DNA of 35,668 bases from the IMG/VR virus record IMGVR_UViG_3300032309_001048, positions 1 through 35,668 of that record, one strand, 5' to 3'. Below the pieces are notes generated by a model that did no database searches, was not told the origin of the DNA, and saw only the letters and a program-made list of their open reading frames with translations. The stretch's first letter is position 1. Each line of letters starts with the position of its first letter. Both the position numbers and the translations under genes were made by a program. This document shows, in pieces, positions 19,640-35,668 of this stretch. The DNA is from a virus.

Positions 19640-20331
19640 ATTAGCTTGACGGACTTACAGAGCCGCTCGTATTCGCTGCCCTTCGTAGGCTTCTCTTTGC
19701 TCGTGTTGTGGGTTGCGTTGCTCCAGTGAATTATGTCGTAGCTCTGCGCTGCTGGGTGCGTGTAGGGAGATCCATCAATGCCGCCGCAGTCGTAGTAATT
19801 ACTGAAAGTGCGCGCCTCGATACCTTGGAAAACAAGCTGCCGAGACATTGCAACCATCGCTTCGTGCCAGTTCCGCCCAGCCATACCATCCACAAGCATC
19901 TGCTCGATGGTTTGCTGCATGCTGGCAGAGTATTCGCTGCCCTTCGGTAGCGACATAACCACCGGAGAGACCATCGAAAGCCACGGCGTGAATGTGTAGT
20001 CCTCGGCAACGATTGGCTTGGTGACGGCTGCATCCATCTGCACCCAGATTCCTCCGTGCTCGTGCAGGGTCTTGAATGCGAAATAGTCACTCCAATGTGC
20101 GAGCGATCCGATGCCACCATTAGGCAGATGGTGCAACGGATCGCCCGCGAAGCCGACGGGCGGCAGTGTGTCCGTGGGTAGCAGCTCAACAGTTACGCCT
20201 TGCGGGATGCCAGAGAGTTTGGATTGCACCCAGAGAACCGGCTCGTGGCCTGCGTCAAGCAAGAGTTGCAGGGTCAACTTTTCCATCAAGCCGAGCTTCG
20301 TCCCGATCCACACTGAATGCGTTCTACTCAT
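19636..20331 (-). CDS. Glycosyltransferase, sugar-binding DXD-type (OCH1-like)
   Basis: A 231-residue protein of the Gly_transf_sug type. A first strand (HSVWIGTKLGLMEKL) is followed by the key helix and motif: HWSDYFAFKTLHEHGG then IWVQMD around residues 79-100. Usually this reads as S-D....L...GGIY-D-x-D; here the first aspartate is replaced, leaving WVQMD, so metal binding could be altered. It would transfer a sugar from a nucleotide sugar. Start ATG 20331 overlaps the upstream stop as ATGA. It is the third of three glycosyltransferase genes placed between capsid and tail genes. Target (virion protein, cell surface or nucleic acid) is unknown. Confidence 0.75.
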   Translation of the reverse strand: MSRTHSVWIGTKLGLMEKLTLQLLLDAGHEPVLWVQSKLSGIPQGVTVELLPTDTLPPVGFAGDPLHHLPNGGIGSLAHWSDYFAFKTLHEHGGIWVQMDAAVTKPIVAEDYTFTPWLSMVSPVVMSLPKGSEYSASMQQTIEQMLVDGMAGRNWHEAMVAMSRQLVFQGIEARTFSNYYDCGGIDGSPYTHPAAQSYDIIHWSNATHNTSKEKPTKGSEYERLCKSVKLI

Positions 20332-21491
20332 CTCCTTGATAGAATTGTCAATCCGTTGCAGTTCTCGTAGTGCTCCGCAACTTGCCACTGAGAGTTATTC
20401 CCAAGCCAGTTGTGGATCGCTTCGTTGATGCCCCTACCGTTGTCTTCGCCAACAGCACCGAATGCAACAGTGTCGTGGAAAACAATATATTTGCTTGCTT
20501 GATTGCCGTGTTTTTGCAGCTCGCCTTTGACCTGTGCGTAGGTGTGCAAGGTGTCGATAAAGAGCAGGTCTGTCGGCTCGATGATCGGTATGTCCAGCGT
20601 CGATCCCTGCGTAAATGTCCAGTCTGTATCGAGTTGATCGTGGATCGCAAAGACATTGAAAAAGTCATGCAGGTCGTGGCTTCGCAGAGTGGCATTCGGA
20701 TTGTCGCTCAATCCGTGCAGGAATGAATATGTTGACATGCCGGTGCGGACTCCGAACTCGGTGATGTGGTCGCACTCTGCGGCCAGCTGTGCAAGGCGGA
20801 GCATGTGCTCGTTGATGTCTCCGACAATTCCCCGGCTCCGGTGAAAGATGTTAGAGATCGGCCACATCTTTGAAAACACTCGCGATCCAAAGTCGTAGGC
20901 ATGCCGGGAGTTTTGAATTTTCACGATGTCATCTTCTTCGCGGCTTCCATTGAGCGGGTGGTCGTGTTGCCATTGCAGTCCCTTGACCGAATAAATCGGC
21001 GCTTCGAGCATTGCCCGATTTGTAAAGTCGTTGTCGCAGAAAACTCCGTGGTATTTCGGACAAAAGACATATTCGAGATGCTCGTAGAGTGCGCGAGAGA
21101 GCACCGGGTGGCACATGAGACCGTCTTGCCGCACGGAGTCAGGAACATAGCAAGACCATTTTTTGGTAGGGTCTGGAAGTTTGCGTAGCTTGGTATCCCA
21201 TCCCTGTGGCGGCGTGAGGTCGTCGGCAATCACGACCAAGATATGTCCGGTCGAAAACTCCGCACAGATATTCCAGTTTGCCACGCTTGACGATGCCCAC
21301 GCTGGCGGTGGCGTTGTGCCCCACCAGTAGACTCCCGCATCGGTGAATGCCTTGATGCTCTCCATGTCGTCGCTCTGCACTCCGAAAATATGCTCGACTT
21401 GGGTGGCGTCGTCGGATCGGTCAAGCCATATCTTGCGTGTTGCGAGTGCTCGCTCTGGTGTGCCACGGGTAGCGTGAAGTAGTGAGATCAT
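20328..21491 (-). CDS. Fused glycosyltransferase and SAM methyltransferase
   Basis: A 387-residue two-domain protein. Residues 1-200 are a GT-A-like domain: MISLLHATRG, EHIFGVQSDD, and VVIADDLTPP with the DD motif at 90-91. Residues 222-387 are a class I methyltransferase of the Methyltransf_24 type: ITEFGVRTGMSTYSF is the SAM-binding loop (E245, G247), LLFIDTLHTYAQVKGEL the second strand and YIVFHDT the third. Such fusions add a sugar and then methylate it. The N-terminal domain is a duplicate of the second half of the preceding gene, and it overlaps that gene by 4 bases. Together the three genes form a sugar-modification cassette inside the structural operon. Confidence 0.78.
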   Translation of the reverse strand: MISLLHATRGTPERALATRKIWLDRSDDATQVEHIFGVQSDDMESIKAFTDAGVYWWGTTPPPAWASSSVANWNICAEFSTGHILVVIADDLTPPQGWDTKLRKLPDPTKKWSCYVPDSVRQDGLMCHPVLSRALYEHLEYVFCPKYHGVFCDNDFTNRAMLEAPIYSVKGLQWQHDHPLNGSREEDDIVKIQNSRHAYDFGSRVFSKMWPISNIFHRSRGIVGDINEHMLRLAQLAAECDHITEFGVRTGMSTYSFLHGLSDNPNATLRSHDLHDFFNVFAIHDQLDTDWTFTQGSTLDIPIIEPTDLLFIDTLHTYAQVKGELQKHGNQASKYIVFHDTVAFGAVGEDNGRGINEAIHNWLGNNSQWQVAEHYENCNGLTILSRR

Positions 21492-23191
21492 TTTGTTATT
21501 TCGTTTGTTATTTCGTTGAAGAGTTTTTCCGCACGCTCTCTCTCCACAGGGTCTGCCACCCTGCGATATGTAGCGTCGAGCGTGCGATTTTCAAAAACTG
21601 GATGATGATGAACGAAAGCAATGTCACGAGCATTAACGATCGCTCCAGCCTTCGCGGCACGAATGGTGAAGTCCGCATCACTGAATTGGTTTTTGAATCT
21701 GGAATCGAAGAGTCCGTTTTGCTCATAGTATTTTCGCGTGATGATTGCCATCGTGATCAGTTCGTCGGTTCGGTATCCATCGCTTGTTCGCAGAACCTGC
21801 GCTGCGCCTGTGTTTAAGCGGCTATCCACCATATCGTCCCAGCCGGGTGGCGGTTCGATATCGTCAGAAGATTGAATCATTATTTCTCCTGTGCTCTCTT
21901 GCGCTGCGAGATTCCACGCTCCGACAGAATATCCGCCGTCCGTCTGCACGACTCCACCAAATCGGTTGAGGGTTGCCGCTGTTTCATCGTCATGATCGAC
22001 GGCAAAGATGTGCTCAACTCGCTCGGGGTTGTTTGCCCGTTGCAGCCACATGGTCATGTTCTGGATTGCTGCGATTGGTCTCCCGCGAGTGGCGTGGAGC
22101 AGGGAGATTCGTGTGCCTTGTGCTTCGCTCAGGATCGCTTGATCGACCGCGAACGCACCTTTTGCATCTCCAAGCTCACGCAAGCACCATCCGCGCAGTC
22201 TGCGGGCCTTCCAGCCATACCATTCCTTCTTGTGCGTCCACTGCGGAAAAGATGGCACCGGTATTTTCTCCATTGCTTCGATGACTTCGAGAGCCGCTTC
22301 TGACTCTCCTAAGTCCAACAGGATCGACGCTTCTACGGCATAGGCTTCACGTCTGTTGAGGTCGAGTGCCTTGGCCCTGCGAGCGAGCTTGAGAGCAGGA
22401 TCGCCGTGACTCAGGTTGCTCAAGTTCAGCAAGACTTCGTAGCGGTGGACTGCGTCGAGATCACGCATCGCGAGAGATTCGGCGCCAAATCTCAAGGCGC
22501 TCTCGACGTCTCCGACAATCATCCTTTCGTAGTGTAGGTAAAATTTAAAATGTGACGACATCTTGTCGTGAAACGCGAGGATGCGCAGGTTACGGTCGTT
22601 GCTTGGTCTGCGTCCAAGAGCAGGCCGGTGCTCAATCTCAAGGTCTCGACGGAGAAGAATCTTGCGTGGTAGCGGTTCGCCATTTTCGCCGCTTGGTGGG
22701 TGTGCGTTTTCGTGAACGGGTCTCCACCACCAGGCTGAATCTTTGCGGAAAAATCTTTCCCGTGGTGCGCGTTTGCCTTGTTCAGTGATCACATAGTCGG
22801 TGAGAACCCAATGAACTTCGGGACTGACTTCGCGGAGCATCTTCAAGTGCGGCTCGGCCATGTGGTCGGCAAGGACATCGTCGCAGTCAGCCCACATTAC
22901 CCATTCGCCATTCTCGATCAGCGAATATGCAATTTGAAAAGCGTGATTTCTTGCTGCTGCAAAGTCATCCACATGCGGCCACGATGCGCAGAGCGGCGAG
23001 TTAAAATACTCGCTGACCCTGCACCCAAGCCCTTCAGCAATGTCTAAGGTTGCGTCCGGCTTTAGACTGCCGATGGCTCTGACAACGACGATCTCGTTGC
23101 AGATTTTTTGAAGCGATGTCACGCATCGCTCGATCCTCTCTTCTTCGTTGCCGCAAATCAGAGCGGCTACCAAACGCGGTTTTATGCTCAT
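21488..23191 (-). CDS. Double-domain GT2 glycosyltransferase with TPR-like middle
   Basis: A 567-residue protein. Residues 1-190 are a GT2 domain (RLVAALICGNEEERIERC start, MWADCDDVLAD at 99-109 with DCDD as the DXD motif, then a RFFRKDSAWWWRPVHE acceptor-loop region). Residues 215-350 look like TPR helices. Residues 361-567 are a second glycosyltransferase domain (RISLLHATRG, HIFAVDHDDETAA, IQSSDDIEPPPGW). The first domain resembles enzymes that work with TPR-bearing peptide partners. The gene follows the terminator behind the capsid gene, so it is probably expressed at a lower level than the capsid. Confidence 0.82.
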   Translation of the reverse strand: MSIKPRLVAALICGNEEERIERCVTSLQKICNEIVVVRAIGSLKPDATLDIAEGLGCRVSEYFNSPLCASWPHVDDFAAARNHAFQIAYSLIENGEWVMWADCDDVLADHMAEPHLKMLREVSPEVHWVLTDYVITEQGKRAPRERFFRKDSAWWWRPVHENAHPPSGENGEPLPRKILLRRDLEIEHRPALGRRPSNDRNLRILAFHDKMSSHFKFYLHYERMIVGDVESALRFGAESLAMRDLDAVHRYEVLLNLSNLSHGDPALKLARRAKALDLNRREAYAVEASILLDLGESEAALEVIEAMEKIPVPSFPQWTHKKEWYGWKARRLRGWCLRELGDAKGAFAVDQAILSEAQGTRISLLHATRGRPIAAIQNMTMWLQRANNPERVEHIFAVDHDDETAATLNRFGGVVQTDGGYSVGAWNLAAQESTGEIMIQSSDDIEPPPGWDDMVDSRLNTGAAQVLRTSDGYRTDELITMAIITRKYYEQNGLFDSRFKNQFSDADFTIRAAKAGAIVNARDIAFVHHHPVFENRTLDATYRRVADPVERERAEKLFNEITNEITK

Positions 23192-31506: not shown

Positions 31507-31743
31507 CTAGATCAACTCAAAGATAGGTATTCCCCATCGTTCTTCCGCCTTGCGTGCGCATTCGTGCAGCGCATCCAGCTTCTCGGAAAATTCAAGGAAG
31601 TCGTAACTGACCCATGTTGGGATGTCTCTTGGATCGCGGCGTATTTCCCAAGTGACCGATGCGTGGATGCCGGTTCCCCACATGCCGCGCTGCAAAATAT
31701 ATCCTGCCGCTTCGATCCGTGCTCTGAGTGTCTCGTAGCTCAT
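31507..31743 (-). CDS. Small hypothetical protein behind TerL
   Basis: A 78-residue soluble protein from ATG 31743: MSYETLRARIEAAGYILQRG, then a HASVTWEIRRDPRDIPTWVS segment, LEFSEKLDALHECARKAEER and WGIPIFELI. It overlaps the stop of the large terminase as ATGA, so both are co-translated. The alpha/beta arrangement is plausible but unassigned. The longer frame to 31842 lies inside terminase and is rejected. Confidence 0.65.
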   Translation of the reverse strand: MSYETLRARIEAAGYILQRGMWGTGIHASVTWEIRRDPRDIPTWVSYDFLEFSEKLDALHECARKAEERWGIPIFELI

Positions 31744-33470
31744 ACGTCTCCTGTTGGTAATACGCCTGCCAGCATTGCTGCCGCGAGCGCGATGCACTCG
31801 CAGTCCCAAAGATGGTTCGGCCTGCCGCTGATGCGAACCCACCTCTGCTCGACTTGTTTTGTTTTTGCGTTAATCACGTCTTTTTTAATTTCTGAAAGCA
31901 TTTGTTTTCGGTATTCGTCGCTAACATCTCTCGGCACCTCCCACGCCACGGCGGTCTCGACCTGGCGTAATGAAGAGAGCTTATCCTTGACTCCTTCGTT
32001 TGCGAAAAAAAAGTAAGCGGCCTTCATCCCGTGCGATCCGGCCTGCGCTGCTTCGATCTTGGAGACGAACCGTCGCACCCTACGCTCCTGCGACTGATGC
32101 CAGAATCCATCCTGCCCCGATCCGTGCGAGGCCGTCCAGCCGCGCCGTGCGCACTGCTCGTAGACCACCGGAGTGTCATATCCAGCATCCACAACATTGC
32201 ACCGCGATGGCACCGCGTATTGCGCAGAGATCGCGTCGAGCGTCTCCCAAGTTAGCGGCCTGCTCTCGTGCAGGAGTCGCGACGATCCGTCAGCGCGGAA
32301 CGCCCGGACAACGCACCAGAAGTGATCACGTTGTTTGTCCACGGCCATGAAGCGATGCACCTCGCCGTCGAGTTTCTGGCCTTCGACGTATTCGCCTTTG
32401 CTGTAGTCTGCGCATGCGATCTCTGGCATGTCGCTTGTGACTTCTTCGACCCACACCTGAGCCTTGCGCTTCTGGACAAACTGCCGCAGCGGATCCGTGT
32501 TGCCGCTGTGTTTGGCTTCGTTTGCTTCCAGAAATTCTCGGACCAAGGAAAACCACGGTATCCACCAGACCGCGTAGGCAGGAATCTCAAATGAGCGAAT
32601 ACCCCGCACCGGATGCGGATTGAGCGGTCGGTAGCTGGCGGTGCTCGCAAGCGTGCGGCGTTCGCTCGCGGTGTCCTTATATTCGGCCTTGCAGTTCTCA
32701 CAGGTCAACCTGATCGAGTCTTGTAGCTGATCCCACAGCCACCCACCTTTTTCGTCCTTAGACTCGTTGTCCCAAGTGATCGCATCGAACAGGTATCTTT
32801 GCCAATGCTTACACGCTGGGCACTCCCAGCCGTAGACTTCCCGCGTGCCGCTGTCCCACTCTTCGCACGACTCGTGAGTTGAGTCCCAGCCCTGCGAGAC
32901 TAACACGGTCTTGCGGTTCCATCGGTCATGATGCCGAGCTTTTAGTTCTCGGATCATCCCGTTCTTCCACCGCCACACCTCGTCACCGATGCAGTAGCGC
33001 ATGGATTTTTCTTGGAGGTTTGTGATGTTGGCACCGCCCGCAAAGAGCACCATGTGTGGGAAAAGTATAGTCGTTTTTCTGAGAGAATGACGGTCTTCGG
33101 GGAAAAGCGCATGCACCGGCTCGCACTCGCGAAAGATCGGCAGTAGTCGCGACTCTGTCCAGTCCTTAACCATGTCGTCAGTCTGTCCGACGAACAGAGT
33201 CGGACCGGGCTTCTGAGCGACGATGAAGCACGCCAAGGTTTCCATGAATGTCGTCTTGCCTGCCCCTGTCGCAGCGCGGATAAATAGCTGCGTGGTCTCG
33301 TCGTCGGTCGCGGCAAGCAGCGGCTCGTTCATCCACGGTGCGACATTGCGGTCGAATCGTGATGCCCTGTCGCTGGCGGGAAATCTTACATTTGTCTCCG
33401 CCCAATCGAGCACCGTCCCGCTGTAGGCGAGCCTGATGCCCTGACAAATTCCTTGTGCAAGCGGGTTCAT
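31740..33470 (-). CDS. terL: Terminase large subunit, lambda gpA-like
   Basis: A 576-residue packaging motor and nuclease. The ATPase has Walker A at about 66-73 (AATGAGKT), and Walker B at about 159-164 (YCIGDEV). Two CxxC pairs (WECPACKHW and TCENCKAEY, at about 220 and 260) are typical of the gpA family. The C-terminal nuclease has acidic motifs MAVDKQRDHFW, NVVDAGYDTP and HLWDCECIALA. It cuts concatemers at the packaging site and translocates DNA into the prohead. gpA-type enzymes commonly make cohesive ends. Overlaps the upstream small gene by 4 bases. Confidence 0.93.
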   Translation of the reverse strand: MNPLAQGICQGIRLAYSGTVLDWAETNVRFPASDRASRFDRNVAPWMNEPLLAATDDETTQLFIRAATGAGKTTFMETLACFIVAQKPGPTLFVGQTDDMVKDWTESRLLPIFRECEPVHALFPEDRHSLRKTTILFPHMVLFAGGANITNLQEKSMRYCIGDEVWRWKNGMIRELKARHHDRWNRKTVLVSQGWDSTHESCEEWDSGTREVYGWECPACKHWQRYLFDAITWDNESKDEKGGWLWDQLQDSIRLTCENCKAEYKDTASERRTLASTASYRPLNPHPVRGIRSFEIPAYAVWWIPWFSLVREFLEANEAKHSGNTDPLRQFVQKRKAQVWVEEVTSDMPEIACADYSKGEYVEGQKLDGEVHRFMAVDKQRDHFWCVVRAFRADGSSRLLHESRPLTWETLDAISAQYAVPSRCNVVDAGYDTPVVYEQCARRGWTASHGSGQDGFWHQSQERRVRRFVSKIEAAQAGSHGMKAAYFFFANEGVKDKLSSLRQVETAVAWEVPRDVSDEYRKQMLSEIKKDVINAKTKQVEQRWVRISGRPNHLWDCECIALAAAMLAGVLPTGDV

Positions 33471-33679: not shown

Positions 33680-34282
33680 TCACATTTCATATAATTTTTC
33701 AATTTCTGATTTAACCTCTGCAATCATAAGCTGCATGCGCGGACGCATTTTTTTTAGGACATTTACTTCGTCCAACCCTGCCAATTCACCAGCTGAATCG
33801 TTTACAAATGCATCTCCTATAGCACTGAGCATAGCGCCGATTCGGATGCCAGCTTCTCGGACTTCGGCGTTCTTGGCGTATTCTCCGCGATCAACTGCAT
33901 TCGCAAACTCAATCTTCTCACACTCCAGCTTAAGCTTCCTCAGCCTTGCCTGCTGGATATTCTCCGGTGCGGTGTCACCTCGACCATGCGTTTCAAGCCA
34001 GTTTTTCCGCCACTCCGTAGCAGCCTCGATGCTGTCCATCGGCATGCCCTGCTTGACCATCTTGTGGATGTTCGGCTGCGTCATGCCCCATGCCGCTGCA
34101 AGCTCGGTTTGCGTCAACCCCTTGCCGTCCCGCTTGGCCGCAAATTCTGCCGCGATCTTCGACTCTCGCGCCGTCAGCGTCTTCCCATCCTTCAGCTTTT
34201 GCAGGATGTTTTTGAACTCAGCTTCGCGGATCTTCCCCTGGAGATCGGATGCTGGTTGCGGCGGCGGGGGTTTCTTTGGCAT
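33680..34282 (-). CDS. terS: Terminase small subunit, Nu1-like
   Basis: A 200-residue DNA-recognition subunit. A proline-rich start is followed by helices, and the helix-turn-helix at about 57-77 is LTQTELAAAWGMTQPNIHKM. The next segment, RLRKLKLECEKIEFANAVDR, then GEYAKNAEV, matches the oligomerisation region of Nu1-type small terminases. It should bind the packaging site near the right end and load TerL. Its start overlaps the glycosyltransferase stop by one base. Confidence 0.85.
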   Translation of the reverse strand: MPKKPPPPQPASDLQGKIREAEFKNILQKLKDGKTLTARESKIAAEFAAKRDGKGLTQTELAAAWGMTQPNIHKMVKQGMPMDSIEAATEWRKNWLETHGRGDTAPENIQQARLRKLKLECEKIEFANAVDRGEYAKNAEVREAGIRIGAMLSAIGDAFVNDSAGELAGLDEVNVLKKMRPRMQLMIAEVKSEIEKLYEM

Positions 34283-35001
34283 TAAAACTCTAAGCTAATT
34301 GAATAATTTGATCCGCCCCGAGTAATTTGCCTAATCATTCCGGGATATTTTTTTATCAACTTATTTATGCAATCTAATTCCATCATCCCACTCCGATAAT
34401 CCTTGCACCCTCCTTCATCCGTCCAATGACTATTCGTCCAGAAACAAAATCTCGCGGCCATAACTCCGCCAAAATCTTTTATATGCCTAAGCCCAATTTC
34501 GTAGTCTTCTTTTATGGGAAAAGATTCATCAAAGAGATAAGTTCCATCGTTCACGATCCCCATGAATGAAGCCGTGATGTAACTCCGAGTTAATATTGGC
34601 TTGAATGGGTAAACGCTTCTTGGCGCATTTTGCGTTGCGACCCCCCAAATCTTCCACCCTAAATCTTCCGTTGTCTCAAACAACCTTCTGCAAATTTTCA
34701 TCCAATCCTCCTCTCTTAGTTTTCTGTGCTTGCTTTTATCTGCCAGCATCTGCACTCATCCCTGCGCTTTTATGTCATCATCCACCATTACAATCCATCG
34801 ATCCTTCGCCTCTTTCAAAATAAAATTCCTCGTTTGCGTGATGCCTTTAACTTCCAACGGGACAGCAACAACCTGCGATCTTGGCATTGCTTTTTTATAT
34901 GACTCCGACTCATTCTCGGGCACATAAAAAACGGCATTGCTTAAGACTCCCTGTGTCTTCGTTCTTCCAGCGCGGCCTTTACTTGGTATTGCGAATTGCA
35001 T
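34282..35001 (-). pseudogene. TAGT-like glycosyltransferase interrupted by an in-frame TGA
   Basis: One frame of 240 codons, broken by a single TGA at 34756-34758 (codon 82), with GTG CAG ATG after it. Before the stop: MQFAIPSKGRAGRTKTQG, QTRNFILKEA, WIVMVDDDIKAQG (DDD at 74-76, a GT-A metal motif). After it: LADKSKHRKLREEDWMKIC, GWKIWGVATQN, SFMGIVNDGTYLFDES, FPIKEDYEIGLRHI. The whole matches a GT-A glycosyltransferase such as the TET-associated type (TAGT). It overlaps the ParB gene by 23 bases. The two halves could be a broken gene, two peptides, or a read-through product. TGA works as stop elsewhere (many ATGA overlaps), so recoding across the genome is unlikely. Confidence 0.7.
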
Positions 35002-35605
35002 CTTTTAATCTGTTGAATGTTATAGCTCGTTCAAATGACACTGCATCAAATGCGCTTCCTTCTTTGTAACCACCACGACGAACCTGCTTTAAACCAAGAA
35101 TGTTTTTTGCTTCCTCGTATTCACTCGGTTCGCAAATAATTACAATGAATTCTTTTGCCGGATCGAGTTGCACAGACTGCTCAAAAATCTTTTCTGAAAT
35201 TTCATTCTCCTTTTCCTCCTCTTCACTCCATCCTTCATCCCACCCAAGCCCAGCAATATCAACACCATCACCTAGCAAAGACGTTAGTTCATTCTTTAAC
35301 ATTTCCTCATCCCACCCACCTCCAACCTCCGCGAGGCGGTTGTCGGCAAGGATGTATGCTTTGCGTTGCGTGTCCGTAAGATGCCCAAGGCGAATGCAAG
35401 GCACGTCCTTCAGCTCCAACTTCTGCGCGGCCATCACGCGACCGTGACCGGCGATGATGCCGTTGTCTTTGTCGATCAAGACCGGATTGTTAAACCCGAA
35501 CTCGCGGATCGATCCGGCAATTTTTGAGACCTGCGCGGCGTCGTGTTTCTTCGCGTTTCTGGCGTAGGGGATGAGCTTGTCGGTGGGTATTTGTTCTATC
35601 TTCAT
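34979..35605 (-). CDS. ParB/Srx-domain protein with conserved C-terminal module
   Basis: A 208-residue protein. Residues 1-92 are a ParB/sulfiredoxin-like domain: QIPTDKLIPYARNAKKH, then GIIAGHGRVMAAQKLEL with the GHGR motif at 53-56, and TDTQRKAYILADNRLAE. A charged linker (EEEEKENE) leads to residues 148-208: KEFIVIICEPSEYEEAKNIL, GLKQVRRGGYKEGSAFDAV and FNRLKDAIRN. The KEFIV....E.....L....VRRGGYK.GSAFD module is one I associate with phage ParB-like DNA-modification proteins. ParB-like folds here bind nucleotides or DNA. It is the first gene from the right end and overlaps the glycosyltransferase. Confidence 0.8.
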   Translation of the reverse strand: MKIEQIPTDKLIPYARNAKKHDAAQVSKIAGSIREFGFNNPVLIDKDNGIIAGHGRVMAAQKLELKDVPCIRLGHLTDTQRKAYILADNRLAEVGGGWDEEMLKNELTSLLGDGVDIAGLGWDEGWSEEEEKENEISEKIFEQSVQLDPAKEFIVIICEPSEYEEAKNILGLKQVRRGGYKEGSAFDAVSFERAITFNRLKDAIRNTK

Positions 35606-35656
35606 TTGGTTTTCTATAACTCAAGTTTTTGACTCCATTCATACGAGACTTACGAG

Positions 35657-35668
35657 AGATTGACAACC
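35657..35668. repeat. Terminal 12-base direct repeat, right copy
   Basis: The last 12 bases equal the first 12. Just before them is a short near-repeat ACGAGACTTACGAGAGATT at 35643-35661, which might be part of a packaging site. The first gene starts 63 bases inside the window end. Confidence 0.6.

Follow-up and report, generated by a model that had tools for sequence, protein, structure and literature searches.

A phage gene for a TAGT-family glycosyltransferase is interrupted by a single in-frame TGA at codon 82, and we think it probable that this stop is a private, recent nonsense mutation that knocked out a previously functional gene. The gene lies in the window, by which we mean the whole 35,668-base stretch that was analysed, a phage contig (an IMG/VR virus record) that uses the standard genetic code and carries GpA-type terminase and lambda-type portal genes, both on the minus strand. 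The observation of the stop is real and well described, and its explanation is an ordinary one.

The preliminary description of this DNA reported a frame of 240 codons, without naming a strand, that was broken only by a TGA directly after VDDDIKAQG. Translation of the minus strand from 35001 to 34282 bears this out, giving 239 positions plus a terminal TAA with the TGA at codon 82 as the sole internal stop, and the plus strand of the same interval has stops all along. Under random composition, a run of 239 codons interrupted by no more than one stop has a probability of about 4e-7. Only the N-terminal 81 codons of the gene are normally translated. The features of the region are collected in Table 1. 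The ends of the window probably lie near each other on a circle, because a DnaB-like helicase gene and two small genes at the left end match genes just upstream of the ParB gene in a related locus (L002) and because 12 bases are common to both ends. The structural-gene region (20328-23191) encodes another GT2 glycosyltransferase of 567 aa, unrelated to the TAGT enzyme, and a Methyltransf_24 protein of 387 aa.

Table 1. Features of the interrupted glycosyltransferase gene and its neighbours in the window
Feature	Coordinates	Strand	Evidence
TAGT-family (PF20691) GT-A glycosyltransferase gene, 239 codons, broken at codon 82	34282..35001	-	translation, profiles, homologues, model
In-frame TGA, codon 82; aromatic sense codon in all relatives found	34756..34758	-	translation, relatives
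N-terminal 81 codons, nucleotide-sugar half, DDD at residues 74-76	34759..35001	-	translation, profile, model
C-terminal part, 157 codons, starting with GTG adjoining the stop; KEDYE (164-168), HW and GGC motifs	34282..34755	-	homologue alignment
ParB-like protein, 23-base overlap with the TAGT start	34979..35605	-	profile matches, relatives
Terminase small subunit, next downstream of TAGT; 1-base overlap with the TAGT stop codon	33680..34282	-	profile match
Terminase large subunit (GpA-type)	31740..33470	-	profile matches

Read through the stop, the protein belongs to the TAGT (TET-associated glycosyltransferase) family that the preliminary description had named. It matches Pfam profile PF20691 over residues 1-178 (1.1e-11, 45.5 bits against a cut-off of 27.5), with the N-terminal piece alone reaching 40.3 bits, and it matches PHROG 842 (T-even beta-glucosyl-HMC-alpha-glucosyltransferase) over residues 1-231 (5e-17). 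The PF20691 match recurs in 45 of 46 aligned proteins. AlphaFold2 run on a 46-sequence alignment gave a pLDDT of 90.7 for the full read-through protein and a GT-A glycosyltransferase fold, as had been proposed from the letters, and the best folds found by Foldseek in the PDB were the GT-A transferases TarP, TarS and RmlT (E down to 9e-8, TM about 0.5); a sequence search of solved structures returned no relative. The DDD motif is a DxD-type metal motif that is near-invariant across the family. Downstream of the stop, IWGV and KEDYE are both present as first noticed, and KEDYE is invariant or almost so in the family. Related GT2 enzymes have their catalytic base at the KEDYE site. On both sides of the stop the sequence aligns with intact proteins of equal length, gaplessly with the closest, which together with the profile matches settles that the frame is a real gene. 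An uninterrupted reading frame is expected of a TAGT gene; here it is broken by the TGA, which in the model falls inside beta strand 77-85 of a single domain, directly after DDD. The TAGT enzymes of T2 and T6 glycosylate a modified DNA base (PMC13216743). The window gene resembles them in its profile score above the cut-off, its GT-A fold and its DDD and KEDYE-type motifs, but it is TGA-interrupted and its neighbours are a ParB-like gene and terminase, not a T-even modification set. PF12851 (Tet_JBP) and PF00145 had no match in the window record, and PF12851 had none across 28 records; the control genomes for the TET search were equally silent, which leaves that search uninformative as to a TET/JBP dioxygenase partner.

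None of the 92 related loci, which amount to about 60 distinct sequences, has the stop. The set consists of 11 close relatives, 80 IMG/VR loci from an alignment search and 2 loci from bacterial assemblies with overlaps removed; some records still occur twice in it, and the scans may hide records near-identical to the window. Codon 82 is TGG in 53 of these loci, TAT in 28, TTC in 6, TAC in 3 and TTT in 2, so that each locus encodes an aromatic residue here (Trp, Tyr or Phe). It is Trp in the closest relative, L006 (95% amino acid and 90% nucleotide identity), and in the siblings L002-L005 (90% amino acid identity), which fits the earlier remark that one base change, for example to TGG, would restore the frame. 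When IMG/VR was scanned with a degenerate form of the motif plus TGA, 5 chance matches came up, all outside TAGT genes; an exact 30-mer pattern with GATATAAA fits neither the window nor L006 and was left out of the evidence on the stop. A search anchored on ParB, intended to be blind to the state of the TAGT gene, returned mainly other ParB-domain proteins through N-terminal matches, and the few adjoining TAGT genes were intact.

Selection on the gene bears on the age of the stop. The good coding character noted on both sides was confirmed by dN/dS values against L002 of 0.08 before the stop and 0.12 after it, and the value after the stop is 0.13 against L006. When changes were polarised with L002, the window branch carried 9 synonymous and 8 non-synonymous changes besides the stop, and the L006 branch carried 3 and 3. 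There is no clear non-synonymous excess on the window branch and thus no independent sign of lost function in these counts, a result to be expected of a very recent stop and just as much of one that is not real. Purifying selection on both sides therefore leaves a stop that is either recent or not real. An old pseudogene under relaxed selection was ruled out by the dN/dS of about 0.1.

Under the reading that we favour, a single base change at codon 82, which is Trp in the closest relatives, would have created the TGA. When intact, the enzyme would be a GT-A/GT2-like transferase produced beside a ParB-like partner, and it would probably add a sugar to a modified base of phage DNA, the DNA substrate being presumed. 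The stop would remove everything after the DDD motif, and the 81-residue product, which keeps DDD, should be inactive because it is without KEDYE, the site of the related catalytic base. We infer that the phage population really carries the mutation.

The main rival to this reading is that a sequencing or consensus error, or a join of strain variants in metagenome assembly, made the stop and that the phage gene is intact. We regard this as possible but rather unlikely. The stop is a private single-base difference in one contig, and the TAGT gene is part of a mosaic zone. The tract 35311-34832 differs from L002 by about 5% and the sequence outside it by 15% (LR 34, against a shuffle maximum of 20), and the support interval for the right edge of this low-divergence tract (TAGT nucleotides 146-251) includes the stop at nucleotides 244-246. 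Furthermore, the L006 contig starts at codon 74-75, so assembly broke here in that other sample too. A mosaic pattern is, however, also what normal phage recombination produces. When the contig was compared with L002 and the result read by eye, no coding-strand gene except TAGT had an internal stop; all remaining stops either sit in overlapping shadow ORFs or precede a start codon. Identity to L002 is 84% in the block from ParB through TAGT to terS (33766-35658) and about 70% in terL and portal, and G+C drops to 42-44% around TAGT; this raised identity and the drop in G+C suggest that the ParB-TAGT-terS module was recently exchanged.

The remaining explanations keep the gene working in spite of its stop. 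Read-through or recoding of UGA, by a suppressor tRNA or by TGA standing for Trp, would give the full-length enzyme, in line with selection that looks intact on both sides, but we consider it very unlikely. TGA is the commonest terminator in the genome, ending 23 of the 46 listed ORFs (TAA ends 20 and TAG 3), including terL, terS and portal, and no relative among the 92 loci or in the IMG/VR motif scan keeps an in-frame TGA. The window contig has no tRNA genes; RNA structure around and after the stop, SECIS-like elements included, is no better than in shuffled sequence (z = 0.23), and Rfam families gave no match to the window. An alternative code was ruled out, TGA being an ordinary terminator here. 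Extremely unlikely, in our estimation, is a gene that now makes two proteins which reassemble, translation of the C-terminal one restarting at GTG83, ATG85 or ATG101. In favour of this, AGGG lies 4 bases before GTG83 and 10 before ATG85, and AGGAGG lies 5 bases before ATG101, but L006 and other intact relatives also have GTG83 and its AGGG and use them purely as codons; ATG85 is an ordinary codon in intact relatives, Met101 is not conserved in L002, and the cut would fall inside a beta strand of one domain. Homologues naturally split at codon 82, which had been named in advance as a refutation of an interrupted gene, were found in none of the 92 loci. Recoding, read-through and a natural split are thus all unlikely given the absence of the stop in relatives, the use of TGA as the commonest terminator, the uninterrupted state of other core genes and the lack of RNA structure. 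Of the four options first offered, a recent nonsense mutation and a sequence error are the ones that stand, and read-through and restart at the adjacent GTG are unsupported (the stop is private, with no structure and no tRNA).

The surroundings of the gene are shared with its relatives. In 87 of the 92 loci a ParB match lies immediately upstream of TAGT, in many cases with an overlap, and several of the others are truncated contigs. In close relatives, the pair stands just before the terminase genes, and the C-terminal part of ParB has a conserved VRRGGYK.GS.FD motif. ParB-TAGT looks like a conserved two-gene DNA-modification module. Related slots hold DNA methyltransferases, as in phage records KP792622 (757-930) and PV036413; L006 has a methyltransferase-like ORF, judged by its DPPYG motif, between terS and terL (L006:1075-2328), and P8625 has a ParB-like domain within an annotated DNA methylase.

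A second disruption was found in phages unrelated to that of the window. L007 and L012 have 6.7 kb in common, differing by two substitutions and one 2-base deletion, and this sole indel, which is also the one difference within TAGT, falls at codons 82-83 of that gene (L012:6240-6250 versus L007:1046-1047), where it shifts the rest of the L012 gene out of frame; the L007 gene is intact. If this gene is hit by two disruptions, they have a chance of about 1% of lying within 4 bases of each other, and a single indel in 6.7 kb has a chance of about 0.1% of falling at codons 82-83; this coincidence is a lead only, since it was noticed post hoc and L012 may be an assembly error. The deletion beside the position of the window's stop may reflect chance or recurrent gene loss. 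A bolder proposal is that TAGT inactivation recurs just after DDD in unrelated phages, with host defences against sugar-modified DNA selecting against the enzyme and alleles toggling between working and broken, which we hold to be very improbable. Recurrent loss would have a plausible cause, in that single losses of phage DNA glucosyltransferases are reported to be tolerated and the host glycosylase Brig1 acts specifically on alpha-glucosylated cytosine (PMC13216743), and in that BrxU, a type IV enzyme, has a preference for glucosylated cytosine (PMC13390438). The T4 glucosyltransferase deletions and Brig1 escapers (PMC13216743) are a parallel among null mutants, in that loss of a phage glucosyltransferase may be tolerated, or favoured, under a sugar-directed host defence. 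As it stands, the finding carries little weight: a member of a known phage gene family is broken here, or was misread. Should the allele prove real and losses of this kind recur, it would document in nature how phages give up sugar modification of their DNA under defences like Brig1 or GmrSD.
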